From positions 2,757,659 to 2,821,658 of the forward strand of contig FN649748.1 in the NCBI GenBank assembly GCA_000310025.1: a stretch of DNA of 64,000 nucleotides. The letters run 5' to 3'. Under the pieces are notes generated by a model. That model made no database searches. It had not been told where the DNA came from and was given only the letters and a program-made list of their open reading frames with translations. Source of the DNA: Ectocarpus siliculosus (Eukaryota > Sar > Phaeophyceae > Ectocarpales > Ectocarpaceae). Below, in pieces: positions 11,197 to 36,293 of this stretch (position 1 is its first letter; every line of letters starts with the position of its first letter). The translations under genes were made by a program, and so were the position numbers.

Positions 11197-13865
11197 TCAC
11201 GAATTCCTCTGGCGGTTGTAGTCCGGCCTCCACTGCTTCTTCAACTCCAGGGCCGTGCGGATAGCCGCTCGGGCCGGGGTCTCACCGCTCCTCGAAGGAG
11301 CCGGCTGCTCCGTTTGCCAGCCATCCGGCAAGGTGCGCTGCGTAGCACAGAGGGCCGGCCGGTTGCGTCCGCTGCGCGAGTCCTCCTCTGCAAGCTGGAT
11401 CGGCGATACCTTCTCGTCTTGCAGGAAGTTGTGCAGATGGAAAAGAGCCGTGATGAGATCCGCGCGTCCTGCGAACTGCACGCGGAGAGGTCTCCACAGA
11501 ATGCCCCAAGTCGAAACCAGGATGCCGAAGCTCTGCTCGATCTTGACACGAAGCTGGCTCAGGTGGAAGTTGAACGAGTCCTCCCCCGCCGGCAGCAGCC
11601 TCCCAGGGTACGGAGTCAGAAGCTTTTCTCCAATGGGGTAGGCGGCGTCACCAATGATGTGAAATCCGGTGGGCAAGCGGGCGACGGCCTTGGCGAGGGA
11701 AGATCGATTCCATGCTACCCAGTCGTTCGTAGAGCCTGGTGAGATCGCCGACATCGCGCAAAACCGGTAGTCGGCGGTGCACATCGCTTGTACGTTGATG
11801 CCGTACGCGGACTTGCTGCCAGAGTAGTACGCGAGGACGTTGGCGGTGTCTTTCGCATACGGAGCCCTGCCCTTGATGAACAGACCATCCACGGCGGCGA
11901 CGACCCAGGAGAAAATGCCATCGGTGCTCTTCTCCTGCATTTGTAGACGGCAGACACGAGGGCGGGAAAGTAGCAGTGTCGGGAAGGGATATAAAATAAG
12001 TCGAGAGATACGTTGACAAAAATTGGTAACAGTGTTCAGCTGTACGTTGTGTGGGTTGATGTCATCGGCGACGGCGCCATCGCCAGCAACGGCGGGCATA
12101 CCATGTAAACTGAGAGTTGGGCCGTTTGATAATCCTAATCATAATCATGCGTCACGTACAGCGGTACGAAGGTATCAGGGCATTTTAGAGCCACGGAGGT
12201 GACTGCATTGATTCCACACTCTTGTATCGCTAAAATCTGTTGCCGGGCCACTGCTGTTGCGGGGCCGAACCAACGTGGCCAGCATACACAAAGGATGACA
12301 ACAACATTTATTTGTAAAGGACACCGAAAGCTGGCGAACCACCCGGGACCCGGGGGATATTTTTCGGTTCGAACCATGCTGACCACGATGACAACCCGAA
12401 CTCGTACCCGCCGGCGACAACACTTTTGTTTCTCTCTTATCAACGAGGGCTGCGTATAGATAGTCCTCCCTACGCTAAAACGGCTGGAAACAGCAGACGT
12501 GAAAAAATACACGATATCCCGCGGTTGGTCGAAAGAATGCCGCCAAGAATAACCGTAGTTGCAGTACTGACCACCGTTAGGTCTCACCTTGAATCTATTG
12601 GCGTTTCGCATGCAGCCTTCCTCGGTCAGGGGGAAGTCAAATGCCCCAATCGCAGGCGTCTCGTTGATGGCATCGATCACTTGCCACAAGATGTCGAACG
12701 TGACCGCCCTCGACAAGCCAAACATGAGGGCAACATCCCAGTAACTGCCGCCAGCCAGGATCCTCAACGCCGCGGCAACGCGGACTTCCACAGCTATGGC
12801 GCCGTTGGTTGGCGATCGCAGTGCTGTGGGGTTTCCGAGCGACGCGCAGATAACGTTTGCAGGATGAGCGTGAGTCGTTCAGGACAGAAGTACGAAGTGT
12901 CAAAGGGGGCATGTTTGCAATCGCCAGCACTTAGTTTAGCAACCTACGACGGGGGGCGCATGTTCTCCGCAAACTCGTCAGATTGCCGGCCCAATACACC
13001 TACCTATGTACTACGGTACGGAGACGGCTCTGTGTTCATCACCTACATACGCATTTTTTGCACATGATGAGCACGTGTCGACAGCTGTTGTGTCATTGCG
13101 GGATACGACAATTTGTATCGGCTCCCGACGAGGCTGTATTTGTTTAGTGGGGCCGGCGTGTACTGTACGCCCTGTGAATACTGCTGCACAGTAGTGAGCG
13201 TCACGAATAGTACCTCCGCCTTTAACCCATACAATGACCGCTGCTGTACAAGTATGTGTCTTGTAACAGCAGTATATCGTACAATACTGCTGCTGCGCTG
13301 TACGTACCCTGCTGCCGCATGTTCGACGAGCGAGTTGCTTTTTTAAAAAAGGCAGCAGGAACATAGACTACAGCAGTAGTAGTCTATGTACAGCACATGT
13401 TTTAGACTTGTGCTCTTCCCCGTTGCTTTCTACATATACACCCAGAAGAACCCTCATCACGCATACCCTGCCGTGGGCGGCTGCATCTACACATCAACAC
13501 TCACCGCCGAAGAAAGCGTTGACTTCCAGCGAAGGGCGGAGTAGCTCGACAAGCTTGTGGAAACTGCCTTTCTCCATGCGGTACGACCGCCGCCACCCGT
13601 GCCGTTTATCGAGGTCCGCCTCGTGTTGAGCCCACGGAAGACGCTTGGGCTCGTAGATGGGCTCCCGTTCCTGAGGGCAGTGGGCACGATGAGCCTCTCC
13701 TGCTGCCACGACGCCCGCCGCCACTACTACGGCCCTCACAAGACCCAAGACTGTGAATCTCTTGTCATGGGCTACATCCTCCTCGTCGATAGCTCGCCGA
13801 CGGCGCTTCTCCCGGCGTTGCGCTGCGATCCCCCTGGGATCTTGACGCTTCCCACGCTCAGGCAT
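11197..13865 (-). CDS. PIF/Harbinger transposase, DDE_Tnp_4 type, 3 exons, 444 aa
   Basis: Exons 13865-13505, 12823-12588 and 11934-11197 join in phase (GGCG|GTGAGT, ACAG|CA, AAG|GTGAGA, GCAG|GAG) into 1335 nt with no internal stop. N-terminal motif YRMEKGSFHKLVELLRP is followed by the helix-turn-helix-like SYWDVALMFGLSRAVTFDIL. The DDE nuclease has its first Asp in AAVDGLFIKG (D215), second in IIGDAAYP (D295) and the acidic third residue in KIEQSFGIL (E332). Family hallmarks YYSGSKSAYGINVQ and SPGSTNDW are present. Length is normal for the family. The enzyme cuts and joins the element at TWA targets in the nucleus. All catalytic positions are kept, so it looks functional. Confidence 0.93.
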
Positions 13866-15323: not shown

Positions 15324-18157
15324 CAGAAGCACGTGGTTTCTTCGCATCGACCGCGCTGCAGCAGTAGTAACCGGCTTGACCAGCGCAAAGACGTCAGTCT
15401 CGTTCGTGGACGCACCGAATGGTTGATATTTTGCACGCAGTACATGACCGGGCGCTGCTGCTGTAGAAGCGAGTAGGGCGGCCGAGGCAGCACTTGTGGC
15501 GAACTATGTACCCGGCTGATGTTGTTGCGCTCTGTTCCCCTCCCTGCTGTATGCTATACTCCTGTATGTCCTTTGTATTGCCATCGGCCTCTGTGCTGTG
15601 CTTCTTTTTTTCCATGTCCTCCCTGCCTACTCTTCCTTGTTGGGTACACCTTGATCTCCCTTTTGCTGTTGCTTTTGCTTTTATATATATGGCTGTCCGC
15701 CCATCTGCTGCCTCTTTGTTCTGTTGCCTTCATTACTCCCATGCCCTGGTGCGTAGTGCCTGATGCTGGTACGGTACCCTTTGATTTTTTTTAGGCGGGC
15801 GTGGGAAGAATCCTCCTTTTTCCCTTTTTATTTTCGCCTTTATTTTTGTTTTGTTTTATTTTGGTCGGTTTCCTAGCGCTCCTTTTCTCGACCGGTCGGT
15901 GCGGTAGCTGTTCTTTTCTTTCTATCATTTTGTTTTCTTTTTCCGAGTGGTTTGTACTCTATCTTGTTTTTGTTTCCCCGCGGCGTCGTATATGCCGGGT
16001 TTTGCGACCACGGGCTCCCCATTTTTGTGGACTACTGTACGGAGCTAATGTGAGAAACAACAACAACATATATATATATATGCAGAGGTAGCACGGTTGG
16101 TTGTTGTGGGAACCGCATAGACTAGATACATACCGATCTGGGTGAGGCTAGCGCGCTCTTCTCCAAGTTGAAGGCCGGAACGGTAGCCGAAGTACATGTG
16201 CACGTGCTGCCGAGGTTTCTGCTTTCTACTCGAGTTCTCCTTGTTATCTGCTTGTAGATGCCCCAGCATTAATTGGTCTACATACATGTAGGTACATGCA
16301 GCCGCAGATAGAACCATACCTACACGGCCGCACTGAGACTGACTGGCGTCCTAACATTGGTCAGCAGTTAGCGCGGTCGATGCTAATAGTACGGACAGAC
16401 ACAAAGATATTGGATCTTACATCGAAACCAACAATGGTGTCCGGTCGCCGCCCAGGACACCTACCGTCAAATATGCTCATGGTCAATTGTCATCACAAGA
16501 AGTAGCTGTGGTTGAAGCAAGCGTGTCCAATCAGAGGCACACCACTTTTCCTTGGGGGACACGCTGTAAATAGTGGTTATTTTTTGCGTTGGCGGGGCGC
16601 GTGGGGGGGGGCGTACTCTTATGTTTTACATGCCTTATCGGTTAGACCATTGACCACGCGTCCTCGAGAGGACGGAGCATTGTTCCCACAGGACCGACTA
16701 CCGATGGCCAATCGTTCCTTCCTACTTTGCCAAAGGTGGCTCAAAAACGTCTTCCCTAGTCTGTCTATCCTAACGATATCCCTTGCAGCCTTCTCAAACC
16801 ACTTCGGGGCGCGTTGGGGGGGGCTTCATTCGCGGCCGTTGGGGCGTGGGTGCTGCTAGAAATGGACAATAGAGGAGGGATTCAGGAATTTCACAAGCGC
16901 AAAAAACCCTCATGTCGCCACGCCTACTCTTACTAGCAAGAACCACGAGAGTATGGAAATTTGCATGTTGCCGACACACCCAAAATATGTGAAACTCTCT
17001 AGTGCAGAAAGCGGAAGCCTTCGGATGGCCCTTCGAGCCAATATGAAGACATGGACCTCGACCCGAAATGAACGTTTCTTATCTGCTGGCTCAAACTGCT
17101 GTGATGGCAAGCCGAATAGAGCACAACGAGAACTTCTGATAGGGAAAAACACCAAGTGTCTGATACTAGCTGTTCAGCAGAGTAATCAAGCTTCAAATCG
17201 CTCCAGGGGGTTGTGGGTATCTCAAGGCGACCGACGAACTGCAGTGGTCCGCCGATTACAGTACCGTGGTTGATGTAAGCAAAAAAGAACTCAAGTCCCT
17301 ACAAAAAACATAACAAGGGACCACTCGCACGCAGGACGAGCTTGTCGTACGTCACGTGTTGAGAGTGTCGAGACAAGCATTGTTTTCGGGGACCCTTACG
17401 GAGCGTCTCCAATTCTGGAGATGTTCGAAAAACTCGATGGATCATTTCGTATCCCTCCCTATCTTCATGCCCAAGGAGCATTTCGTTTTCGTTTTTTCGA
17501 ACCATGGTCGTCTTTCAGTTCGTGTGCAAAAGCTATAGTCTGTGCTCTGGTTTTCTTGAGCACAATTGGAGGTCCTCTGTCGATTTTCTCGCTTACTATG
17601 CAGGTGGAACGACGAAAACATATAGATGATGCGGGAACAACAATCAAACCCAAGTTGGTCGTGTGGTCAACTAACTTCACCTACACCTGGACAGACGGTT
17701 ATCCTTGCGTGCGTATGCTTGAAACGCCCCACGACCAGGGCTAAGAACCTGATGCCCAGAGTATTCGACGATGCGCTGATTGGGTGCTGTCACTGGTGGA
17801 CACGATCGATGTGCCATCGTAGCAGTGCAAGTATCGAACCCGTGTGCGACAAGAAAAAAAAACACGTAGAACTGTGGGGCTCGACCACTGCAAGGGCGGT
17901 CGTTCCCGCGCGCTGTACCAGCAACAATGCGCTCATCGAGAGGGTAGATCCCGTTCTCAACCTGCACTTTGTGTGCGGCCTGGTCGAGAGGACCACGACG
18001 GACGCGTAAAAATAGGGGGGTAAGATGAGGCCGAACAAAATCGACGGTGTCCCATTGATCCGGGCAATTCGCACCCGGGCAGCGTGCTGAACGAACCCCC
18101 CTCCCCCCCCTCCGCGTCTGGAATCTGGGTTGGGCAGGGCAACCAAATTCGGAGGAG
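15324..18157. other. Gene-poor DNA upstream of the pyruvyltransferase fusion gene
   Basis: A pyrimidine-rich, T-run-rich stretch (15540-15960) gives several long but low-complexity frames that I do not call. The remainder (16000-18150) shows no recognisable coding sequence. It should hold the promoter and possibly a 5' exon of the gene starting at 18158. Confidence 0.5.
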
Positions 18158-21100
18158 ATGGAGACGCCTACAGCACGGCCACGAGAGGCCGCGCAGCACG
18201 GGCGGAGACGGGCAGTGGGCGCAGACTGGCACTCGAGTCAGGCCGATCCGTCCAAGGCGGGCCTGTTCGATGATGTCGGGGACTGCATCCTGTTGTTCGG
18301 GGGGTTCTGCAATGGTGAGAAAAAAAGGAGGAGTTATGTCAGTCCATTGTGGCGTTGCCTCGGCGAGGTCCATGTTGGGTGTGACTATGATGGCCTTTTC
18401 CGTGCTGATCTCCTTGTTGATGGCCGGCCTGCCGCGCCGAATAAGAGAGACGAAGTACGCGTTTGACTCGATAGGGTGGTGGCGGTGTCGAAGAAAAAGT
18501 GGCTCACCACCGCTGCTGCTGTGACTACCAGCTTCAGAAGCTCCATCAGCAACTGCAACGTTTGATCAAAGCACCCGGCAAAAGACACATTCCTTGCATA
18601 ACTGGTCCAAATACGCGTCGGACGTGATAGGTGTCGGAGAATATTGGCTTGCCACCGCGGCTGCGACTGCCAGCGGCAGAATCACCATTACCATCACCAT
18701 CATCAGCATCAGCAGCAGCGTTTGGGAAACAACGCCCGGCAAAATGATTGTTTGGCGAGTGTCGCCAAGCCTATTTGACTCGGCACACCGAACTTTAGCG
18801 CATTCACCTCTGTTTCTGACGCGAATCAACCTCTTGCCAGGCAACATGGGTGATGTGGTGCAACCAATCGCGATGCAAGACCTCCTAGCTTCTGTCGCGC
18901 CGGACCAGTGTTTTTGGTACGCGCACCCGGCCGATGAAGATGTCGAAAGGGGTTACCGTATCGGCGAGTTTTTCGGCGGGGACGACTCGAAGGTGTTCCC
19001 CCTCACGCCCGACCTCGCTTGGAAGGTAACGAAACACACACAAATACACCACTTTTTTTTTTTTTCGCGGACAGCGAGTGTCCTGGCCCTTCTTCTGCGC
19101 CCCCGGCTCCAACAGAGAGTGGACACTCTCCCCCGAATCACACCGACAGTTCGCCCACCAGGTAGCTCCCGCGAGGTGATATCGTGTGTATTGTTGATGT
19201 CGTTCTCGATTTGGTGGAACGACGCTAGTGTATCGCAAGAATTTTGGGGGGGCAATATGTATCATTGGGCCAGACACTATTTTTCACCCGGTTGGTACAA
19301 CATTGCAGAAAGGAAATAAACACGTTTGAATTTTCATTTTGGTCTTCAAGTCATATCCGTGTGCCTTGGTGTTTTCTGTTGAGAGGAAACTCTCACTAGC
19401 TTGTTGCCTGGAGCAGTGCAAGTGTCCGGGGAAACCGTTGTGGCTGTCCGATCGAAATTGGCAAGTTTTTCCGAGTTGAACGGTTCTCTTGAAAACGAAG
19501 ACAAGAAAGAGCTAGTGTCAAGATTGTTTTGACAGCATTTCACGGTTTTGTCCGGAACAGAAACGGCTCCATTTATCGGGGCAACCTCGGGAGATTTTTT
19601 TCCCGGACGGAGGAACACGGACACGTGTGAATCGGACCATTCGGTTGGGATGCGCACCGGCTGGGACTCTCGAGCATGACTGTCGTTTTAGCGTTCCGTG
19701 ACACCGTTGTGCGCGCGTGCACGCCGGCGTACCGTCACAGCGTACTGCGGTGGACTAACCCCATGATCGAAACGGCTTGACGAACACACAGGTAAATCGG
19801 TTCAAGGCCTTGGTTATCGGTGGCGGAGGGATTTTCGCAGCGATCCACCAGCCGTTGCCAAACGACCAGTTCGTAGAGGCCTTGACCCTGCCGATAGTCG
19901 TGATGGGAGTGGGAGCATCGTGAGTGTCGCGTTCCTTCGGCTTCCCGCTGTCTCTTGCGATATTCGGTTGGAAGCGGGGGGTTGGATCGATTCGCAGGCT
20001 CGTTGAGGGCTGCACCAACCGTCTCGTAGACTCATGGTCGCGTACGAAACGAACGCCCAATGATGCTACGAGGCCGCGCTCTGTGTGTCGGTTGGATTGA
20101 TTCACAGGCTGAGTAAGGGCTCTACACCAACCGTTTCCCATGTGCTGACTCATCGTCGCCTAGGAACCGAATGACCACGATGCTGCGAGGCACGCTTTGT
20201 GTATGGGGACCCATTCTCGAAGGCTCCCCGCGGGTACAATACCCTAGGGATATTGTGCTGCCGCCAGAGTGAAGGTGCCTTGCGAACGCATCCCCTCCTC
20301 CCCTGTGGGTGACGCAAACCAAGGACGCCTGCACGTCTTGCCACCAAGGAAACAAGAACCGCGAGCACCTTCGTCTTTAGACAGTAATTCGACAGCAACC
20401 GTCTCTCGTGCATGCGTGCGCGCTGCTTTCGACCGCTGGCGTCCGCCGGTCTGTTGTCGTTTCCTCCCCCCTGTCAGCTCCCGCGCGATGATCTACAGCA
20501 AGCTGCTGTCGAAGGCGGTGTTCGTGTCCGGCCGCGATGAGACGTCGATCCAAACGTTCAAGTCCATGCTGGGGCGCGATCCCAACGCGACCGTGGCCCC
20601 CGACGACGTCGCTCTCGTGAGGGACCCCGTATTGAGCGACAAAATGCTGTCCGACAAAGAGGGCAGTTGCTGGAAACGGAGCGCAGGTGAGCGCCGCTGG
20701 CTGTTGACTGGTCCGAGCAGAGTAAATGGAAGAGACTATCGGGGAACCAATTTTCGTTTCATGAAGGGGAGAGTTGTCTTTTGCGATCGGAAGGTGCCTG
20801 ACACAAAGAGCTCAAGACCCGCGTTTGGGTTTGTTTCCACACGCCACTGTTCAATGCTATAGGTCGGTTTCCCCGGCGAGGCGAGACCCACGCGACATGA
20901 ACACCGCAGCCAGCTAAGACAGGAGGAAAAATAAGTTCTTCTCTTGCCGCCCCAGCCAGTCAGTCGTCAACCACGCTGATTGCTTGCACGTTGCCGCTTG
21001 CATTTTGTTCGCGCTTCTCGCCTTTGTTTCACCGGCTCGTGGTTCCCGTAGGCGACGATCAACAGCCCCTATGTTTCGTAGTACCTGCGGCCAACACGCA

Positions 21101-23344
21101 GGACACGACTGAGATGCACGAACACCTGCTCAACGCTGTGAGGCAGGGCGACAGGTTCATCAACGTTTTCCCGAAGCATCAGAAGGAGATCGAAAAGGTG
21201 GGCATTGGCATGGATCGCGTTGTGCGGTCGCTCGTGTTTATATTATTTTCCCGTGTTCCCGCCCACAGACCAAGCACTCATTTGCATGAGACAAGTATGG
21301 GGGCGTTTCGCGTCCCTTTCACATCATGCCATCCTGGGTGTCACTAAATAACCCCTCTCCCCCGCCTCTCTTCCATCGGGTGCTGTGAAATTCGCCCCCC
21401 GGACCCCCCGAGAAGTTCGCGTACCCCGGCACAGTGGAGCAAATCGTCGATCCGATGGAGTACGTCGAGCAGCTGTGCAATTGCAAGGCGATCATCTCGA
21501 CCAGGCTCCACGGCGTGGTGCTGGGCCTGCACATGAGCGTGCCGACCTTCGCCGCGTTCCGTCTCCCCTCGGACAACAAGGTGCCCGACGTCATGGCGCG
21601 CGTCATGTCCCTGCCCGACCAGTTCCTCCAGATCGACAAGGACCTGGACCGCGACCTGGTGAACGCGGCGGTTAGTCGCGTGAGGCAGCTCTACGAGGAA
21701 GGGGATCGCCGGGCGGTGATCCACGACCGGCTGTCCGCGTTCCACGACGAGTTCATCGTGCACGCGCGCCACGTGCTCGTCGACGTCCTCGGGGTCGGGG
21801 ACCACCACCAGCAGCAGCAAGGACCAGATGTGGTGACGTATGTACAACAGGCTCAGATCGACAACGGACTCCTGGCGCCGCAGGCGGCAGTGAGCGCCGC
21901 GGCGGCCCTGAACGGCACACCAGCGGAGTCGTCCGTGCCGTCATGGTCGCACAAAATGATGCCGGCATCTGTCGGCTTGGACTGCGTTGCCGCCTTGTTC
22001 TTGCTCTTCGCCATCATTGCGTTGGCCGCCTTGCCCTCGAAGACGGGCGGTGGCCGCGGTGGGGGTCGAATCCCTCGGGTACTCAAATCTGACGCAGCCA
22101 ATGGAGACAAGAAGGGCCTCATTGCCGTCAGCGGCATGGAGCCTGCCCTAGGGAAGGCCACCGCCCACCAAGAAATGGAAGAGCACTGCGGCATGACCGA
22201 TGCCGCCAGCCCTTCCAGCTTCAGAGATTCCGAGCTGGGTTCCCGAGACTCTCTGTCGCCAGCACAACGAAGCCCCGCCACGAAACAGTCGGGCTTCCCA
22301 GCTACCAAGAAAGGACCGTCTCTCAACTTTCTCTTCGCGCTCAACTTCATCCTGTGGATAGCTCTGGCGGTGGCCTTCAGTAGGTACAGCAAGTCCTATC
22401 TTCGGGATACGCAGGACCCCGTAGGCCTCCTCGTTCTGCAGGGGTCGGTCGGGGTCGTGGTCCTTTGCGCTCTAGGACGTCTGGGCTTAGGTGCCACCGA
22501 CGAAGGGCGTGCAGGAGGCTCGGTCAGTGTGCTAGGCCAGCTCGTGCAGCCGTTTGCTGCTAGTCGACTGGCCGGGCTAGCGGCGATCCTCCACACCTGC
22601 CAGGCCTTTCTCACGAGCTTCTCCGTGTTCGTTGGCGGCGTTGCCGTGACGAGCGCGCTCAAGGCCACCGAGCCGGTCGCTGCCGTCGCGTTCTCGCACC
22701 TTATCCTGGGCAAGACGGTTCACCGCATCAAGCTGGCGTCGCTTGCGGTCATCATGGCGGGAATCGTCTTGTTGACCACGAAAAGCACGGCCACAGCAGG
22801 AACCGCCCACGAGGCAGCGGAAGAGGGAGGAGCCACGCCCCACAGCCCGGTGGTGCTGGCAGCAATGTTCACCATGGCGGCCGTCTGCTGCAACGCTCTT
22901 CGCAACGTGCTGATCAAGAAGGGCGACCCTGTCCCACCGCGTCAGACCCTCCTGGCCTGCAGCTTGGCAGCGGCGGCGATCGGCGTCAGCCTCATGGCGC
23001 TCAGGGTCGTGATGAGGAGCATGGACGACCTGCTCCTAGGCCCCGCTCCCGGAGGCGTGGTCGAAGCCGCGGATGCCGCCCGTGAGGGCAACGGCGCTAG
23101 CTGGCTGAGCATGGAGGGCGTGAACGCGGCCCTCTGCTTCGTCGGGTACAACCTCGCCTCGTTCAACCTCCTGGCCCAGCTCAGTCCGGTGGGCCACGCC
23201 GTGGGTAACTCCGTCAAGAGGGTGGTGATGTTCGGAAGCGGGATCCTGCTCATGGGGGAGGTGATGACAGGGCGGCAGCTCGGAGGCACCGCCGTAGCCC
23301 TGACGGGCGTCCTTGTGTACAATCTCGTTGGGTCTACCGGGTAG
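18158..23344 (+). CDS. Polysaccharide pyruvyltransferase fused to a triose-phosphate-translocator-family transporter, 6 exons, about 918 aa
   Basis: Exons 18158-18314, 18841-19025, 19792-19919, 20478-20686, 21052-21197 and 21413-23344 join in phase throughout (2757 nt). Residues about 40-420 carry pyruvyltransferase hallmarks in order: LLFGGFCNGNMGDVVQPIA, ALVIGGGGIF, IVVMGVGA, FVSGRDETS, and AIISTRLHGVVLGLHMSVP. This family moves a pyruvyl ketal from phosphoenolpyruvate to sugars. A single membrane helix (CVAALFLLFAIIALAAL, about 460-480) and a polar linker follow. From about 577 to the end there is a multi-helix transporter of the TPT/nucleotide-sugar type, with NFLFALNFILWIALAV, ALKATEPVAAVAF and NALRNVLIKK. 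One extra helix before the transporter would put the enzyme in the lumen. No signal peptide is seen at the chosen ATG, so a 5' exon may be missing. Confidence 0.87.
19981..20206. repeat. Tandem duplication of about 110 bp in intron 3 of the fusion gene
   Basis: Units 19981-20090 and 20091-20206 both begin GTTGGAT(C/T)GATTC(G/A)CAGGCT. They continue with CACCAACCGT, GACTCAT(G/C)GTCG, AATGA(T/C)..ATGCT and CGAGGC..GC in order. Confidence 0.75.
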
Positions 23345-25924
23345 TATCGCTGCGAGGTGCGTGGGATGGATGGGGGGTTGGGGGGGATGGATGCTGCTTG
23401 GCGTGTTCGCAGATAGCTTGGAGTTGCGGCGTGCATGCACACACTAGAATGCAGTTGGGGACGAAAGCTCGTTGGCTGCAGCTGTGAGTTTGCAGCCAAG
23501 GCATTGCTCCCGGTCAAAGGCCGTGCAATGTCAGTGCCACGCATGTCCGTGGCAACGGTTGTCGTAAAGATCAGCCCTTGTCCGTGTGAAATGCACGAGC
23601 TTGTCGATGGCACTGTGGGCAACCTACGGCGTGCGGCGTGTGTGCTTGATGTGAAAAGAGTGCGAAGGCGCTCGGACGGGGTATAGCTGTCAGATTTTCA
23701 GATGGATGTGGAGAGTCGCCAAACCTTATGCGTGGTGCGTGTTGTCTGCAGGTACTCGGAGTGTGCTCTGTCGGCGGCTGACGATTTCCTTGCAGAACCT
23801 GGGGCGTCTCAAGTGGCGACATTTTTTAATAGTTCGGAGGTATCTGTCAGGTGAAAGACAAGCCTGCCTGGGTGTAGCATGGTTTTCATGCCTTGTGTTT
23901 GTGGAAGGGGCGTCGGCAGATGTGTGTATGTTCTTTATGCAGCAATTAAGCTTTCATTTCCTCAAGTACATCATTTCCTCTTCGCCCTCCACTATTATCG
24001 AGTGCGTTAAATGGTCGAGGCTTTTTGGTGCGTCTACACGTTGGGTGTGCAACGCCGCGAAAATGGTCAGAAATTTCCCGTATCGATCCGATCGGGCACG
24101 GTGTCGAATACTGCGGCCTGCTCTTCCGAATTTGACAGTATCTAGCGACAATTCATTGTCTTGTACCTGTAGTCTTTTGCACTGAAAATGGCATCCTGTA
24201 GTTTGCAAAGGGGGTGTGCGCTGTGCGTGTAGCAGCACTGCGACGCGTTACGGGGTTGGCGGTCTGATGTACAGTAAGTAGTACAAGGCTGGAGAGCCTG
24301 AAGTAGAGGCATTACCGCCTCGTGCATGTGACGCTAGAGAGCCTGAAGCATAGATAGAGCGTCTCGTTCTTTTTCCCACTGCCTTATAGCTGCGTTTACG
24401 TTGGGCGTTTCCTGTTCGCTCGTCTTTGGAGTCCCCTTGGACGGTCGATATCTTGACCTCGTTGTGTCGAATTTACGATAGGCCGCTCGATTTACGGCGG
24501 ACGGATAGGTGTTTGTGGTGCCTCTCGTCTTGACAGGTTCATTCTGTGTCTCACTGTCTCATTGCCCTCTTATTCCATGGATGTCGTGACGTGTTTCACG
24601 GCATGGTTCCTGCGCAGTCGTTCTCGCGCTATTGCCTTTTCGCTCCAGCGGCGCAGTTTGTTTTTTTCCGCGTGCTTGTTAAGTCTGTTTATGGTGTGTA
24701 ATGGAGATAAGGTCCAAACACGAGCAAGTGGGCGTTAAGCCATTGCAATAGAAGGAACTCATAATTCAAAGTATATAGGCTTGAATATTCTCCCGGTTGA
24801 AGTACCGTAAGTCGCAAAAGATGCAGCATCCCCTGGACGGAAGGTCAACGCCCGATTACTCCATGACGAAGAGGATGACAACATCGCACGTTAGTTGTTT
24901 AGGAAAGCTCGTGACTTGATGGCTCCAACGCCGCAAATCCCGACACTGGAAGTCCTTAGTTGTTGGAGAGTAATCGAGCGTAGTATACCGATCGGGGGTG
25001 GGGGTGGAAGTAAATGTGACGTACGGTGTATGCGTGGTAGTCAGGTTGTGTGTAATACTGAAGTAATGTTGTTCCTGATTGTTGCGTTTTGATGTTACAT
25101 GTTGGAGGGCGGAATGTCTCTGTATTGCAGAAGACAACGAACCCCAAAGTAGGACAGGGAGCCTCGATATGTGGTACTGTGCCTGCATACTAGAAAAACA
25201 ACAAGGTGGAGGTCCAGCTACGAATGAAAGTATTTCCACCAAGAAATGACGGTGGTGAGTTCCCAGATGTCTCACCAGGTACTGCATAGAACAGACGGAA
25301 ATAGCGCGATGACTGAAAATGATCCCACGCCCCCCAAATCACGAAAATTTGCATCGCACACCCGGGGCGCGATCATGCCATCTCTCGGGCTGCTGCACGA
25401 CTTTTCACCCTTTCACTGTGCTTTGGTTCGTGGAACTTGCATGTATATGCCAATGAGTGTGGGTGTCTTTCTGACCCAATTCTTTCACATGCGTACAGAC
25501 TGGGGGCATTTCAGGCAACGCTCATACAGACAGTGCTGAGACAAGCACGTCGTGTGCTCCACGGGCAGCTTCGCGGCTTGTCCTCGGGTAACCGTTTTAG
25601 CTATGGTAGGCATTCAACGCGGTACCCCTTTTTCGACATTCAAGTCAAAGGCATCAATCTCTATCTCGCTACAGCTTCATCTGTGTACATATTGTGCCGC
25701 GCACATAATTCACATTATTACAAGGCTTTCGGCGGCTTACGCCGCCACGCTGAGAGAAGCGTACCGCAAGACGCATGTTTCTTGGCGTCTGGTAAACGAT
25801 GGTATGCGGTGGCTGTGAGATTCCCAGCAATTTGTTCCCGCAGTATGCAGATGTGAGAAATGATGTACCACATAGGGCGAAGTCACACACTGAACGTGCG
25901 TTGTGAGCAGTAGTGAGCAGAAAC
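23345..25924. other. Intergenic DNA, no gene recognised
   Basis: 3' flank of the fusion gene followed by DNA with only short frames. Nothing matches a known protein or RNA. Confidence 0.55.
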
Positions 25925-26359: not shown

Positions 26360-28840
26360 CTAACCCATCGCACGGACTATGCCTTTTTGGCCATTAACCA
26401 GTCCTTGCTTAAAGTTAAGGTTCCTTGTTATCATTACCATACAGTTCAGCTTTAGGTTCAAGACATGAGGCGGAACGCCTGCAACGTCAATTGAGTTGAG
26501 GTCAGCAGCCATGACGAAGTCGAAGGCATCGGCATTGCAACTGTCAGGGTCGACAGTGTCGCAACTGTTCACGGTACAGAGATCACCAGACAGCAGGTGA
26601 AGGATATGTTCATTGATTGTGTCTATGGTGTCATTGGTAGAGGACAGTATTGCTCTCGACTTGAACGTGCTGGGGTCTGCATGTAGAATATCGGGGTAGA
26701 CGAAGTTGATCAATTCTTCGAATGATTCCGTATTCTCAATGACAAACGGATCAGGTGGCATTGCTGGGATGTCATGAATGTATGCTAGGGCTCCGATACC
26801 AATATTGCGTACAAAGGCGGCGTAGGGAGCATCCTGGCGATCACGTTGGGAAATGGTCAGGCGCATTCTATGGATATACGGCCACAGTGGGCTTGAAATG
26901 ATGGAAGCATCAACTGTTTCTGCCTGTCCGAAAACACGACGACGGGTCCTATTTGACGCATGTCGCCACTGAGCAAAACAGTTTTGCCGCCCATTAGCAG
27001 AGTGTTCCCCATGAGGTCCTGTAGCGTAAGGTCAAGCGCCTCGACGGAATATCGGTGGCTCATCGGAATTTCGTCCCAAACGATGAGATCACATTTCCGC
27101 AAAACTTCTGCTCGTTGCGATTCCGCGGAGATATTGCACATTGCGCCGGCGACATTTTGAACCGTTGTGTTGGGTGACGTTGTGCACGACGTGGTCGTAA
27201 ACTAAAAGCTGTTCGTTGGTAAGGTTAGGTAGGTGGTGAGCAGCGAAAACACGCATCTGTTCGACGTCGAACATATGTTTAAACCGTAGGTACTCCGTGT
27301 CTAAATGAATGACTGTTGGAAGTCCGGCGATGGTGTTAGTACGTCCATGGTGCTGCAATCCAAGGTCGATTTCCCGAAGCGCTGCGTTGCTCGCTTCGAT
27401 GGAGGTCATGGACATACGTAAGTCTTGGGGGTGAAGTCTCGTTTAAAGTGCCTTGTACTCTTCGTCATGTTTGACGATGCCCATGGCTCTAGCAGCGTCT
27501 TGGAATGTTTCATGAACTATTTCGTTGTGAGTCCTGAGTAATTCAAACGATCTTGCCGGTTTGTGGTGCAGAAGTTGGCGCAGATAGAAGACGTCCCCTT
27601 TATCTGGTGTAATAGCCGTAACACGCGCTACGTGCTTGTCTGGAGTGCGAGGTGTAACATAATAGCCGAATCTGTCGCGAAAATGCGTTCGTTCCTGTTT
27701 TCCGTGACTTTCGATTTTTGTTGACAATGTACTTCTCGTTGTAGTCCAGGTACGTGAGGGAATCGAAGTCGGACTCGGTAGGTCTTCCAAAGTACAGCAT
27801 GAGGTCGGATTTGGTCTGTTCGGCTTCCGACTTCTGTTCGGCACGTGTAAGAGTTTGATCGACAATGACGTGTTGTTCATCGGGAAGGTGCAGGCGAAGG
27901 GACGTGACGGAAGGGTGGCGCTCCATGATGTGGAAACCAAGTAATCGCCACGCAGCCTCTGCCGCTGACACGTATCTTGCCGATCGGTAAGCTTCAATTT
28001 CGTCACCACCACAAACAATCTTGGCCTTGATAAAGTCGGCGCCTTTCGTGATGTACTTGTAAATATACTTGACTACTGTATGGCGTTGGCGGTGCAGACG
28101 TCAAAACACATGTGACAGTTGTATTTGGAAAGGAGCCAAATGTTGTACGGTGCTATCCATTGATTGGTGGCGAATGATTCGATAAATTTGCCGTTCACTC
28201 TGTGTGTGTAGGGAAATATCTCTTCGGTATCTCTACGACGGTACTCGGCTCTACCGGTCTTGCCCACAGCGGCTACGTCACGCCATGGTTGGGGATAGTT
28301 TTTGCCGCACACCTTAACTCCAGGCCGTTTTCGATCTTCCTTCATGCACGGTAATGTGGGGTTGTGACTGCCACACTGTTTGTGTACCATGAGGTTCAGC
28401 ACTTGATCTCTTGATCTACCATTGTTGAGCTCTGGCGGCGGCACTTCCGCCCAACACCATTCGTCCATTTCTCCCATCTGATCGGGCAAAGGTCCCTCAA
28501 AGCGCACTACTAAATGCATATGGGGCATTCCCCTCTTCTGGAACTCTACGCAGCTCATCTCAAAGTCAATCGGTCCAAAAATCTTGCCACTCCTGAGGTC
28601 TTTCATGAGTTCAGCCATTTTAATTTTAATTTTGAAGACACGGTCGCATAAGTCTGGCCTGTCGTACGCTGTTTGACCGGGTAACAGATTAGCTTGAATT
28701 AATTGCTTCCCAGTTACCATTGCATGTCATGGTGAGCATGGCACTAGGGCGTCCCTTACGTGATACAATAGCTAAGGCGTCGGTTTTGTGTTTGCTTTCA
28801 TTTTGGCTGGATGCCCGTGAAAGGTTTTCGGGAGCGATTT
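26360..28840 (-). pseudogene. Decayed Helitron Rep/helicase gene
   Basis: Read in three shifting frames, the segment retains the Helitron order. First comes the pre-HUH region (AMLTMTCNGNWEAI, about 28710-28750), then EFQKRGMPHMHLVVRF with the HUH metal site (about 28510-28540). The Rep tyrosine region KYIYKYITKG follows (about 28047-28076), then YVSAAEAAWRLLGFH and GDVFYLRQLLHHKPARSFELL. Pif1-type helicase pieces come last: LIVWDEIPM (about 27070), TVLLSGDMRQIGPVV and MVMITRNLNFKQGLVNG. Frameshifts lie near 28700, 28075 and 27720, with a stop at 27443. Helicase motif I (Walker A) is deleted at about 27150-27175, and the C-terminus stops at 26360. It cannot encode a working rolling-circle transposase. 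Confidence 0.88.
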
Positions 28841-29990: not shown

Positions 29991-32900
29991 CTAAATCCAA
30001 GTGAAAAATGGTGGGAGAAATGCTGGTCTGTCAGGGCTCGAGAAAACCGATCTTTGAACGGAGAGCGGCCCGCTGGAAATGCGAAATACTCGAAAGTTAC
30101 GCCGAACACAAATGATAGAACTGTTATTAGATGATGAGTGAGGCCAGGTTGCGGGGTAGCATGGGGCGAATTCCGCCCCTCTCCCCATGCAATGCATTTA
30201 TGTATATACGCACGAATATGGGAAAATCCAAGGATTTGATTACATCGGTTTTACATGAGAAAGATAATGTGGGCGTCCGGGAAATAATCGCGAAGCCTTC
30301 AGCACGGAGGGAGTTTTTTTCGCTGCGCCCTGTTGTTGGGCGCAGACCTCCGCTTTCCTTTTCTCACCTGTGCGGAAGTTCGCCTGTACCAACGAGGGTC
30401 CATTCACATCGCATCGAATGAATCTTTGGTCTCACGCACGAAACAAGCGGGATTGTATCAATGTACTGCTGTGGAAAGGGCCGTATGAACTACTGTGTAC
30501 ATGGCTTGTGTACACACGAACACTGTGATCAGACGAACTGATGTTTTCTGCGTGCGCTAAAGCGAGAGCGTCATCACAACATGGATGGGTTCACCCCATT
30601 CAGACACCAGCTCACTCTGCAGGGTTCTCTCTAGCCCGTCAGACAACAGTGAACAGGCGTCTGTGTTGTTTCCAAGCCACCTTTGCCAGGGTTGAAGGGA
30701 GGACGCAGGAGCGCCATGGTTGAACAATGTTGGACACATCTCCGAAGATCACAATACTACTACGGGTTTCCACCGGCACACGAGGCATTTCCAAGTAGAG
30801 AGAGCGAGAGAGAACTTCCATGTAACCTCGACTTGATGGCCAGCAACGCCATCCACCGGCGGGGTCTGTGCGAAGTGTTCACAAACTTCCCCCGCAACAC
30901 TTGCGCAGGCCAGACCTCAACCAAAGATCCCACAAAGCAACTTGCCGGCGGGGGGGGCATAGATAGGAGAACCAGCCCCCCCTGTGGATAGCAGTTGCGC
31001 GGCCCCTACGCACTGCAACGATCCACAGCGTTGCACACACCGCAGAGCAGCGAGAGAGAGGGCACGTTGTGGCATTTTGGTGTGTGTCCATCGGTGCGTA
31101 GGCAGCTTGCTTCGTTTTTCTCTCCCTAGACCGGCTGAGAGACGCTACGAAAGGTAAGAAGGGCGTGAGGGTGCGGCAGCGTAGGTGGAACAGCTGGGTC
31201 ACATATGCATATTCAGTTCCTGCTTTGAAGCACAATCCGTTCGTTGGCAACCTGCTGCGGAGCTGCTGTGGAGGAGCTTGTCCTGCGTCCATGACTCCGC
31301 ATAGCGAATGGAAGAGTATCCCTTGATTTGCGGTATTTGCCGATATTTAGCGGGAGACTGCCTGCCGTCGTCTATGTAGACCACAGTAGTACGTTCAGCT
31401 TGTGAAAACTCCTGTCTCACAGTAATGAACTCGTTGGCTACGGGAACAAGCAACGGTTATTTGGGCACACCAGAGCAACGGTGTCATCAGAAGGCCTCTC
31501 ACTACTGCCTCTCCTCTTCCCTCGCCGGCTTCTCCGCTCTCTACCGCAAGGAAGGGTCGTTTGCCCCAAAGATGCCTGCAACGTCCGCTGCGACCGGTGG
31601 CGCATCCAGAGTGTTTTCAGCGACCTGGCCACCGTACACTCCAGCATCTATGGGTGTAGAGGATGACCAGCAAGCCGCCAGGGACGACCGGCAGCGCGGT
31701 CCCTACTGTCAGGTGCGACTCCTGCAGGAAACTTCCCAGCTGAAACTTTGCGTTCAGGCCGTGCATCTGACACTACATACCACATGCACATAAGACGACG
31801 ATACATTCTTCTACTGTACATCAGCAGTACACCATAGTCTGCATACAGTTCCGCCTTGGTATGTACGTTGTGGGACCATTTCTCTCCGGCGGCAACATTT
31901 GGGATTGGCTAACCTACGTCCTGGTTCCCATTCCTTGTGCTTTGGGGGTGTCGGGAACAATGGCCAACCATCCTTCTAGAATTAGACAGGCAGTGATCGG
32001 TGCTCAAACATGTATCGTGTGAGGCAGGCCCACGGGCCCCCTGAAATCCCCACCTGCATCCTTCACTGTCACGGCCGATTCCACTGTCAAAATTGCTATC
32101 GTCACCGCGCACTGTTTTGCTTGCAGGTCGCAATTCGGACCCTCCGTGCACGCACGAGCGGCGCTGCTTTCATTTCAAGTTCAGGTGAGACGGAAATAAT
32201 GCACAAGACGCCGCCGTGGTTGACGCTGGCACTTCCGAGCTCACCACTCATCGAATGCATCTACTACGCATACTATGCACCCGCAAAATTGGTCTTGCCT
32301 GTAAACAAGATGGATACTCGATTCCGGCAGTGAGCCACATCATCCACAATCCTACTAGAAGGCAAGACACGTGTGCTGTACCGTCACTCCGTATTTCACT
32401 CTTGAAAACAGCTAGAGTTGATACTTAGGAACGTACATAGTTGCTGTTCAGTCCGTGAGGGCATACGCTAAGGCAGAGGCCCACCGTAGTATGCATATGG
32501 CTATTGCCAATGTCTATGACTAATATTTGCAGTACATTTTCTGCTGAGGGATGGTGTAGTACTGGAAAACTGTGAACATTTCCACTCATCCTGGCTACAA
32601 ACTCGGCCAACTGCATGTTGGGGACGTGTGGTTTGTTCCTATTGTAATCTTCCGTCTCGGTGTTGACTTTACAGGTTGAGTAACATCTTGAGGCGCCCAC
32701 GAAAGGCAACGAAGAGCAGCTTCCATATACGCATCGGAACAACTTGTGAAATAGCCTGTTCAGTCGATTTTCATTCAGTGAAGCCACATGATATCATTCA
32801 CGGCTCCCTCGGGGACTGAAACTGAGACCAACCCGGGGAAAGGAAAGCACCTCTCAAAAGAGTACCGAAAGGTGGGTTGACTACTTGATTTTGGGCCGGT

Positions 32901-33136
32901 GCCTGGCTGTGTCTTACCCGCAAGATTCAACTAATCGATCAAGCCTGTGCGCCGTGACGTGCACGTACGTACGTATATACCTGGCTCGACGTCGTAGACT
33001 GACAAATGAACAGCAATTTGTTAGAACAGCTGTCCTCGACCAAAAGTGTGCAACTGCTTTTAATATCCCTCCTTCGTGGACGGCAGCATGCAATATTGAG
33101 TGCTACTGTGACACACCAACATCCTCCCGGGCACGT
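29991..33136. other. Intergenic DNA, no gene firmly recognised
   Basis: Only short frames. A possible small exon at about 32127-32180, bounded by TTGCAG and CAG|GTGAGA, may belong to the membrane-protein gene to the right, but it shows no motif. Confidence 0.45.
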
Positions 33137-34846
33137 ACTAATTGACGGCGTGCAGAGGCCACCACCGACCAGGGCGAAGGCGGTGACCTTCTTTTCGTCG
33201 AGCGCGAGCTGCTCGTGCGGAGCTACAACAGCGTCTCACTTTCTGACGACGGCACCTATAGCTTGACACTCTCCGACTGCTACGGATTCATGCCGATTAC
33301 CACGTCTTCTCCTGCCAGACGAGTATCGAGTGCTTCTTGGCGGTCACGCAATCATGACGGGGCAGATGCCGGGAGGCGTGAACGGCAAACGGCGGAGATT
33401 GTTCGTATATTGTTCCTTCCCCTGCCTTCATCGATGGAGTTTGTGGTGAACAGCGGACAAGTGAGTATTGGGTAGGAGCACTGTATCACTACCTCTGATC
33501 CACTCTCAGGGAATCAGTTCACTCGATACGGAGTATTTGCCGTTCACAAAAAGCATTGTTGAACTGATACCGACCACGGTGCGCCTCAGATTTGGGTATC
33601 GAATGCACGGTCAACGACTCTGGAGTGAATACATACAATGGGTTGCGATCAATTCGTCATGTCTAGACCCGTACCCACACGGGAAGGCCACGCACGTTGG
33701 CTGGGATGCGTCCCCCGAGGTAGTCACTCCGCTTGTCGTAGCGTATTTTCTCTCATTTCGATGCCCTCGCCTCTATTTCTCTTTTCCTCTTCTCCTGCTT
33801 CAATGGCCGTACGTGCGCCCCGCCCCGTTCCGTCGACGGAAATGCACGCATACCTAAGGCGACAAGCAGTGGCACCGTCATCGGCAACTTTCACCTTCTC
33901 CCCGTAGCCCACGTGCCCCAGCTGCAGCACGCGCCCGTCTTCAACGCAGAGACCACCACCACGTCTCCGGATATCAGGACCGTCGGGCACGCCGCCTACA
34001 CGCCCGGAGTCCCCGTTCTACATGAACCATCCCGCGCGTATTTCTCCTCTACAACGGCGGCCGCCGCGGATTCACTCTGTGAGAGGGGAGAAATGGGCTG
34101 CATCGGAGAGGGGCCAGGTGTCGACGAAGGTACCGCGCTGTCTTCAGTTGGAGGCGGCTTCGCGGGGGGAGTAGCGGTGGGGGTCGTTTTTTCTCTTCTG
34201 CTTGTCCTCATAATCTTCAGAGGAGGACGGGGCAAGGACTTCATGGAGAACTTCTGGACTCTACTCAAGGGCGACGGTGATGCAGGGATGAGAAAATCCG
34301 GGTGGAGGGGTTTCATCGTCAGCGTCGGGGGGGAGAAGAAGGTGTCGTCATGCCAAAGTTCTGTACCTACGAAAATGAAAACTGAAATCCCGCCCGCTTC
34401 CGCCCAAAATCCAAGTAGACTACCGGCATCTATGCAGCCTGTGCGCTTCAGGACATAGACCGACATTTGGTGCCAGGTTTCTGGGCTCCGACAGAACTGG
34501 CCACGCACACCCAGACCAAGGGATGTAGGCGTATGGCAAAAGTGATTGCAGTGCTCCCCTCCCCTTCGTATTCACTCCGGTATTGCATTCTATATCTTTG
34601 GCCCGGCAGGAAGACGGCGTACCGCATGGCGTCGATGCGCCAGGCAAGAGTAACGACGGCTCCAGCGACAGCGACGAGACCCTTATCGAGAATGTACCTG
34701 AGCCGGTGGGGCTACCTAGGTACGGTGAACCACCTGCTCGCTTTCTAACAAAAGCTCACAACATTTTTGTTCGAACAACTAAAATTGTAGTGCCCCCCCA
34801 AATCCAAGTTCGCTCCGAAAACCGTTGTTCAATTGCTGTCGGTTGA
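33137..34846 (+). CDS. Putative single-pass membrane protein, incomplete model
   Basis: Pieces with coding character lie in order. At about 33150-33290 is LLFVERELLVRSYNSVSLSD followed by GTYSLTLSDCYG, a phrase like the YGDG-type repeat seen in secreted stramenopile proteins. At 33928-34458 (acceptor CTGCAG|CAC) is a Thr/Ser-rich luminal stretch, two nearby Cys (CERGEMGC), a membrane helix GGVAVGVVFSLLLVLIIF and a basic stop-transfer FRGGRGKD. At about 34607-34846 is an acidic tail (SNDGSSDSDETLIENVPEP). The apparent first intron (33461-33509) is very short and the YG motif region is out of frame with what follows, so exon joins are unsure or the gene is damaged. No enzyme function is visible. 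Confidence 0.35.
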
Positions 34847-34849
34847 CCA

Positions 34850-35761
34850 AGCCTTTGATTAACGCCACATCTAACAGACGGTTAACCGTAGGTTTTGACG
34901 CTTTATCTGATCCTCCATTGCTGTGGCCCCGTGCTGTGTCTTGTGTGGGCAGGAGCGAGGAAGACTGGCGGATCTTATTCGATACCCTGTACGAAGATTA
35001 GTCGGCGCCGCGGCGGAAGTAGCGATGATCCCACAAGCCGCGTCGCCCAGCCATGGACGGGCTTAGGTTGCCATGACGCCATCAATCGTTGCCCAGTAAT
35101 GATGGATCCCCTCGTCCCCTTCTACCGCTGAAATCCCCCTTTGGCACGTACCCGGGTTTAGCAAATTGTTGAAGGCATTGAGCAGCCGTCCACCACGATA
35201 TCCTTATCTAGCCGGCATTCTTGCCTTCGCTTCAGTACGAACGAGAGATCCCTGACCCAAAGAAGTGAGTATCTGAAATTTCTATCTCAAGATCTTGACC
35301 CTACTCTGGCGTGATCAAGAGGGTTGACTTCCTTCTGCGGCCAACATCAACCACGGCAAATATATCACGCGTCGAGACTACTACCGCGTTCGCGACGAGT
35401 GCAACTGAAAGAGGCATATTTGATAGATCGGGATTTAGCCACAGCCAACCAAAGAGTCGAAATTGTTTCCGAAACACCGGGGTCTTGGGGCACGCATCGT
35501 ATGAGGTAGCGCGTTTGAAAAAACACAATCGACCGCGTGAAGCAAGCACAGACCGAATAACAAAAAAATATGAATCGAAAGAGAACGAAACACGTCACGA
35601 GGACATCACACCAGTACCACGTGGTGTCGGTGTGCCATGGTAGGTACTCGATATCTTCGTCAATAACCAGGAACGGAACATCTACCGAGACGATACGTCT
35701 AGAGCAGCGTCACCACGCAACGAGGACGCCACCAACAACAACTTCAACAACAACAATAACA

Positions 35762-35796
<35 letters not shown>

Positions 35797-36293
35797 AACT
35801 AACAAGGCAAGAACAAACAACAAAGGCGACGGAAACAACGTCAACGCCCCGCAAAACGCGGCAACAGACCCAAACAAATTTGGACAAGCTGCGACCTAAA
35901 GATAATTCGTCGGTCGAACACAAAAACAATCAAACTGGCCAAGGGTGCATCTGCCAAGAGTGCAGAACGACATGATACGGGGAGCAAACCAGCACCTGGG
36001 ACATCACAAACTTTAGACACATATGCACACAAAAACGCTGTCCCACCCAGGCCCTCCGAATCACGCCCGGCCACATCGCTGCCTAACCCTAACCGCATCA
36101 CCGGAGCGTGTGGTGCGGTCTCCATCGCCATTCGCATCTCTCCTTGGAAGGAAGTCGGCGCCGGTCTACAATGTAGTCTAAACTGAAGAAGACACGAGTT
36201 ACAGTGCACACGTGTGTACAGAATTGCACGCCGAAAGGCGTTGCGAGCAACAGACCTCCTGAGCGAGCCGGGCCGCTGCGAAACACATCGGTG
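34850..36293. other. Intergenic DNA with an (ACG)n tract
   Basis: Contains (AAC)n/(ACG)n microsatellites at 35735-35800. Frames through them are repeat-driven. No other supported feature. Confidence 0.55.

Follow-up and report, generated by a model that had tools for sequence, protein, structure and literature searches.

A brown-algal gene joining a pyruvyltransferase to a triose-phosphate-translocator-type carrier, and a possible phosphoenolpyruvate feed within one polypeptide

We analyzed a 64,000-nucleotide stretch of the Ectocarpus siliculosus genome (contig FN649748.1; C23:2757659-2821658 in our genome search), called here the window. On its plus strand a complete gene at 18158-23344 encodes 918 amino acids in six exons, separated by five GT-AG introns across which the frame is kept (Table 1). 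The polypeptide carries a pyruvyltransferase domain (PF04230), a lone membrane helix and a carrier domain of the triose-phosphate translocator (TPT) type (PF03151), in this order. The join does not depend on splice prediction, since the end of the enzyme, the linker and the carrier all lie within the open exon 6; the open reading frame 21389-23344 (+), of 651 amino acids, by itself matches PF04230 at 29.3 bits and PF03151 at 97.2 bits (Pfam curated cut-offs of 25.3 and 30 bits). An earlier note on this DNA had described one phase-consistent gene joining both domains, with a junction at 21197|21413, the motifs GNMGDVVQ, IGGGGIF and STRLHG, and a lone membrane helix between the domains; the six-exon model and the single-exon join confirm this gene, the junction agrees, and the motifs and the helix are seen at the places given in Table 1.

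The public model of the window gene is P0001 (903 amino acids, PF04230 and PF03151, Ectocarpus siliculosus, ‘conserved unknown protein’), from which 14 exon-6 residues and a single Lys where exons 5 and 6 meet are missing. The two-domain gene model is already in databases, there without a stated function.

Table 1. Positions in the window of the exons of the fusion gene and of the sites discussed in the text
Feature	Coordinates	Strand	Remark
Exon 1	18158..18314	+	Start codon to ...FCNG; N-terminus without hydrophobic segment; P0001, P0002, P0003, P0005 start alike
Exon 2	18841..19025	+	Beginning of pyruvyltransferase fold; GNMGDVVQ spans exons 1/2
Exon 3	19792..19919	+	IGGGGIF at 19816-19836
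Exon 4	20478..20686	+	VSGRD; Arg codon 20533-20535 = CsaB R148 / Pvg1p R217, by motif
Exon 5	21052..21197	+	Enzyme half
Exon 6	21413..23344	+	C-terminal part of enzyme, linker helix, spacer, whole TPT-type carrier, stop; single open frame
STRLHG	21497..21514	+	Arg/His = CsaB R306, H308 / Pvg1p R337, H339 (phosphoenolpyruvate binding), equivalence by motif
Ser317	21536..21538	+	Gly in 30 aligned relatives; change particular to window copy
Lone linker membrane helix	21965..22030	+	AlphaFold helix 459-480 of P0003; hydropathy, flank charge
TPT-type carrier, ten helices	22322..23338	+	Pfam match and predicted model
Lys aligned with K204 of 5y78 (phosphate binding)	22661..22663	+	Alignment
Lys-Arg aligned with K362-R363 of 5y78 (phosphate binding)	23216..23221	+	Alignment

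A six-frame search of the 189-Mb Ectocarpus assembly gave five PF04230 places and 29 PF03151 places. The enzyme-then-carrier order is present at five loci, one having a degenerate enzyme half: (i) the window gene; (ii) an intact inverted copy of it, 97 kb away and 96% identical over 9 kb; (iii) a 757-amino-acid frame with both halves on C44; (iv) a 915-amino-acid frame with both halves on the plus strand of C2; (v) an 865-amino-acid frame on the minus strand of C2, whose enzyme half, at 17.8 bits, falls short of the PF04230 cut-off and is not among the five PF04230 places. In this last copy (L038 1508-4102, -; ∼10 kb from an intact fusion) RLDG replaces RLHG and Ser replaces the lysine aligned with K204 of the translocator structure 5y78; its annotated protein, P0031, begins downstream of an in-frame signal-like stretch. 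A pyruvyltransferase on C7, with no PF03151 place nearby, matches the free enzyme P0046 to the last residue (71-95% identical by piece).

With the window frame as query 15 database proteins were found; a search with the fusion alignment gave 46 matches, and 36 of them have both Pfam domains. All two-domain matches bearing an organism tag come from brown algae (Ectocarpus species, Undaria (tag Undpi1), Scytosiphon and Sphacelaria); Hapterophycus and Laminaria are represented by partial carrier-side models, the latter in a carrier search with 29 matches. Each protein search scored ∼8000 candidates, a scope that leaves room for occurrence outside brown algae. The related P0003 of Ectocarpus sp. 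6 is 93% identical over exon 6, and its enzyme half covers positions 1-275 of the 280 of PF04230 at 78.3 bits. The check proposed earlier, a search for the same domain order in other stramenopiles, thus found the fusion in further brown algae; the layout is genuine and conserved, beyond chance.

The remaining matches have one domain. Three of the 46 (P0031, P0035 and P0038) are carrier only by Pfam and contain a degenerate enzyme half; seven are enzyme only, with P0041-P0045 resembling cut frames and P0046 and P0047 resembling genuine free enzymes. Two enzyme-less carriers, P0048 and P0050, retain the lone linker helix and are nested among the fusions in the carrier tree. P0050, an Ectocarpus protein with the database name ‘putative phosphate/phosphoenolpyruvate translocator precursor’, may be a genuine split version or a truncated gene model. 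No locus of its own turned up in the readable assembly, where the best matches reach 58-60%, or in the window or ten stretches around both copies of the window gene (some with N). Homologues always occurring as separate genes had been named as a finding that would speak against the fusion; this is not so, though the free P0046 and P0047 and the enzyme-less P0050 coexist with fusions. The model P0016 contains two fusions in tandem, and P0028 has ∼790 residues before the enzyme, including PF22778, perhaps from merged neighbours. When viral contigs were scanned with the alignment of the fusions, none of the 52 pattern matches was a relative; the same holds for the 70 pattern matches of a scan for prokaryotic kin of the enzyme. 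Both are weak negatives, each based on two short patterns.

As described in PMC10435577, phosphoenolpyruvate (PEP) is bound by R148, R306, H308 and K328 of bacterial CsaB and by R217, R337, H339 and K361 of fission yeast Pvg1p, whose PEP-binding residues are also given in PMC4872226. P0001 has R, R, H and K at the equivalents of the four CsaB residues, set by motif and spacing with no superposition. Of the 73 rows of the fusion alignment, 43 have letters at all six key places, three in each half (the carrier-only P0053 was set aside by hand), and the equivalents of R306, H308 and K328 are intact in 33 of these. When the predicted model of P0003 (mean pLDDT 65, pTM 0.46, 30 sequences) was compared by Foldseek, Pvg1p (5ax7) was matched at E 2.8e-4 and 17% identity; scores of this order are also given by many other sugar enzymes, several UDP-GlcNAc 2-epimerases and glycosyltransferases equal or surpass the Pvg1p match, and 5ax7 is absent from the 50 rows of a second structural listing for the full-length model. 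A profile of the enzyme half gave chance-level matches to PDB sequences; Pvg1p emerges by fold alone.

In the carrier half, K204, K362 and R363 of 5y78 are kept in 32 of the 43 rows. For the structure model of a carrier-only relative, 5y78 is the nearest fold, by ∼5 Z units. Five fusion proteins had no match to TIGR00803, the model of nucleotide-sugar transporters, at E up to 1, whereas a control, the nucleotide-sugar carrier L034 of the Ectocarpus genome, scored 184.4 bits. By fold and by the TIGR models, then, the carrier appears nearer to the triose-phosphate/phosphate translocator than to GDP-sugar carriers; a firm grouping with GDP-sugar carriers, which the earlier note had named as telling against a PEP feed, is not what the fold indicates.

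Two kinds of evidence bear on the orientation of the protein. Among fusion models extending upstream of GNMGD, a 19-residue scan found a hydrophobic N-terminal segment in P0018-P0021, P0026 and P0035, and in P0028 ahead of its additional domain; P0014 and P0032 have shorter segments, as judged by eye. P0001-P0003, P0005 and P0029 have none, nor has P0031 as annotated. N-terminal anchors are also present in the free enzymes, P0046 and P0047. In P0026 the signal peptide is followed by a Cys-rich segment before the enzyme, which fits a non-cytosolic location. Independently of these segments, Lys and Arg are more numerous in the 20 residues that follow the linker helix than in the 20 that precede it in 51 of the 61 rows compared (equal in five, fewer in five; 48, 5 and 8 rows by net charge); these are the 73 rows less 12 that had no segment or failed the hydropathy cut, and they are related and include enzyme-less carriers. 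Loop charges within the carrier are weak (55 rows). As paralogue signals or anchors and the flank charge agree, the enzyme would be luminal and the spacer cytosolic, an orientation that fits a ten-helix carrier with a cytosolic N-terminus. The luminal enzyme of the earlier note is therefore upheld by the paralogues and the flank charge, but not by the window copy itself, in which no targeting signal was found. An upstream signal-peptide exon was sought at 15500-18320 and in the inverted copy; there were weak candidates only (near 17421), with no start common to both copies.

The two halves tend to lose their key residues together. Of the 43 rows, 10 have a broken enzyme triad, 11 a broken carrier triad and eight have both; with the enzyme intact, the carrier is broken in three of 33 rows (Fisher p 4e-5). 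This p-value is optimistic because the rows are related, and seven of the ten enzyme losses may belong to one clade (support 87 in the enzyme tree); the number of independent joint-loss events may, on this sequence evidence, lie between three and six. Joint loss could also be plain decay of whole genes. Against coupling stand P0024 and P0032, which lost the enzyme triad only, and P0014, P0037 and P0039, which lost the carrier triad only; P0039 may be a model error. The identities of both halves correlate (861 pairs from 42 rows, r 0.81, Mantel 0 of 2000), and quick trees of each half have many clades in common and many unresolved forks.

Built on the observed layout, its conservation, the active-site residues, the carrier fold, the paralogue orientation and the joint residue loss, the reading that we consider rather probable is that of a luminal pyruvyltransferase of the brown-algal secretory pathway with a PEP/phosphate antiporter tethered to it, by-product phosphate paying for the next PEP. 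The PEP cargo, the exchange for phosphate, the Golgi site, the hand-over and the acceptor glycan are the parts of it that we infer. The gene product would be a two-in-one membrane protein, most likely of the Golgi, whose N-terminal half would act as a PEP-dependent ketal-pyruvyltransferase on the luminal face; the single linker helix would cross from lumen to cytosol, and the C-terminal half, a putative ten-helix organophosphate carrier, would most likely bring cytosolic PEP in and let phosphate out. TPT carriers are antiporters that exchange phosphate for phosphorylated compounds. Pyruvyl transfer from PEP releases phosphate (PMC10435577). As the carrier type swaps phosphate and the transfer frees it, every reaction would yield what the carrier has to give in exchange for its next PEP: the enzyme would pass the pyruvyl group of PEP to a glycan, and the freed phosphate could close a phosphate cycle within one polypeptide. 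Whether brown algae have such a self-fuelling cycle of import and use in the Golgi, and use a family of these fusions to produce pyruvylated glycans, seems to us evenly balanced.

Several observations weigh against the tethered PEP antiporter. P0050 is a carrier without an enzyme half. The window-copy protein, from its first ATG, has no N-terminal hydrophobic segment, and no targeting signal could be placed upstream of it in the scan of 15500-18320. TIGR00817, the model of plastid phosphate translocators, gives 60.9 bits for P0003, far under its cut-off of 317.9, and 75.9 bits for P0050, likewise under it; a TPT-family fragment of the Ectocarpus genome, L027, which we take to be GDP-fucose-carrier-like, also weakly matches this model (16.6 bits). 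At the place of H185 of 5y78 (three residues before T188), a residue that presumably has a functional role in the translocator, P0001 and most rows have Ala; for this reason the cargo cannot be read from the conserved residues. A comparison by eye with five further TPT-family fragments from the genome shows His there in four cases and Gln in one, which is not decisive, and no literature was found on a residue separating PEP from triose phosphate (His185, phosphate translocator). In the full-length model of P0003 the carrier folds tie and give no ranking. Finally, no report of pyruvylated brown-algal glycans was met, candidate papers naming both not being taken into account.

The carrier could instead move a nucleotide sugar or a phosphorylated compound other than PEP, such as a triose phosphate or sugar phosphate; the fusion would then co-localize two steps of glycan assembly with no PEP feed. 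PF03151 also includes nucleotide-sugar carriers, and the sub-threshold, non-exclusive TIGR00817 score and the Ala at the H185 place agree with such a cargo; yet the phosphate-binding residues kept in 32 of 43 rows are lost mostly where the PEP residues of the enzyme are lost, and both the distance of ∼5 Z units in favour of 5y78 and the contrast with L034 in TIGR00803 matches also count against it. We regard this alternative as unlikely. We find it quite unlikely that the enzyme is cytosolic, or the protein located in a plastid membrane, with the transferase acting outside the Golgi lumen. TPT relatives function in plastids, no start signal is seen in the window copy, P0002, P0003, P0005 or P0029, and the charge bias is missing from ten of the 61 rows, but the other 51 have it, and signals or anchors are present in eight fusion rows (P0014, P0018-P0021, P0026, P0032 and P0035) and two free enzymes, to which the C2 minus-strand copy adds its signal-like stretch, in frame ahead of the start as annotated. 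Plastid signals of the brown-algal lineage require Phe after the cleavage site; the likely cleavage sites, chosen by eye with no predictor, are not followed by Phe, and the Cys-rich segment of P0026 also argues for the lumen.

Another alternative concerns the window copy alone: it may be a duplicate in decay, carried along when the segment was duplicated in inverted orientation, with an enzyme half that no longer works. Compared with its inverted twin, the ratio of non-synonymous to synonymous substitution rates is 0.61 overall, 0.64 in the enzyme, 0.84 in the linker and 0.22 in the carrier, on few changes. When P0002, P0003 and P0005 serve as outgroups, the window copy has 16 changes of its own (13 in the enzyme, three in the linker, none in the carrier) and the twin has nine (five, one and three), and seven are of unclear side; one window-copy change turns Gly into Ser at residue 317, in a column invariant across 30 rows. 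The enzyme half of the window copy is drifting, changing faster than the carrier half, and the C2 minus-strand paralogue has lost key residues in both halves. Nevertheless, frame and splice sites are intact in both copies and P0001 retains all key residues; gene conversion may also account for part of the contrast, since synonymous divergence, too, is lower at the carrier end. Decay of the window copy is thus improbable in our view, and the paralogues are more suitable than this copy for experiments. That the gene is an artefact of merging two adjacent genes we find hardly credible: models of relatives are sometimes over-merged (P0016 with its two fusions, P0028 with its additional domain), but the join here lies within one stop-free exon, five loci and several species share the order of the halves, and these co-vary.

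The inverted segmental duplication includes window positions 16211-25720 and 30125-37893, reversed at ∼C23:2864600-2881900 and 89-96% identical by piece; the stretch between, 25.7-30.1 kb, is without counterpart in the duplicate. Within this unduplicated stretch, at 26360-27201 (-), lies a Pif1-like helicase remnant over two frames (PF05970, PF21530), maybe of Helitron type. Elsewhere in the window, 11200-12138 (-) holds a transposase frame (DDE_Tnp_4, PF13359).

Each half of the protein is of a known kind; for a single chain combining donor import and transfer we found no precedent. The open-access literature (supplements, preprints and most subscription journals lie outside its coverage) gave no description of a pyruvyltransferase-carrier fusion, and the papers found to mention pyruvyl transferase together with Ectocarpus or brown algae are on giant-virus glycans or red algae. 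The string ‘pyruv’ does not occur in the main text of a survey from 2024 that covers genes for brown-algal matrix polysaccharides (PMC11468063), or of the Nemacystus genome paper. Red and green algae are listed in a review from 2019 on pyruvylated glycoconjugates (PMC6801904), but neither ‘brown alga’ nor ‘Phaeophyceae’ occurs in its main text. A natural covalent fusion makes the coupling of donor supply to transfer testable in one protein, and the fused enzyme offers a way to guess the cargo of the carrier. The tethered PEP antiporter would predict pyruvate ketals in brown-algal glycans.

The triose-phosphate translocator is a free carrier of plastids. Its structure, 5y78/5y79, is the closest solved relative of the carrier half and shares the ten-helix fold, K204, K362 and R363; in contrast, the carrier described here is fused, secretory judging by its paralogues, below the TIGR00817 cut-off and has Ala at the H185 place. 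The bacterial ketal-pyruvyltransferase CsaB (TIGR03609; PMC10435577) shares PF04230 and the equivalents of R148, R306, H308 and K328 with the enzyme half, but has no carrier, and the fusion scores 27.5 bits with TIGR03609 against a cut-off of 213.1. Gene fusion in brown-algal cell-wall glycan synthesis is also known from the sulfated-fucan pathway (PMC6418280), where L-fucokinase is fused to GDP-fucose pyrophosphorylase in Cladosiphon and Nemacystus, and a sulfotransferase-domain gene to an alpha/beta hydrolase in Nemacystus; those fusions pair enzymes and have no carrier. In nucleotide-sugar supply to the mammalian Golgi, carriers are separate from transferases, and carrier-transferase complexes are discussed as possible (PMC9368800). 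The nearest functional likeness is found in Schizosaccharomyces pombe, where the Golgi enzyme Pvg1p, of the same family and with the same PEP-binding residues, depends on the PEP carriers Pet1p and Pet2p for luminal PEP (PMC4872226, PMC6801904); there enzyme and carriers are separate, whereas here they form one polypeptide.

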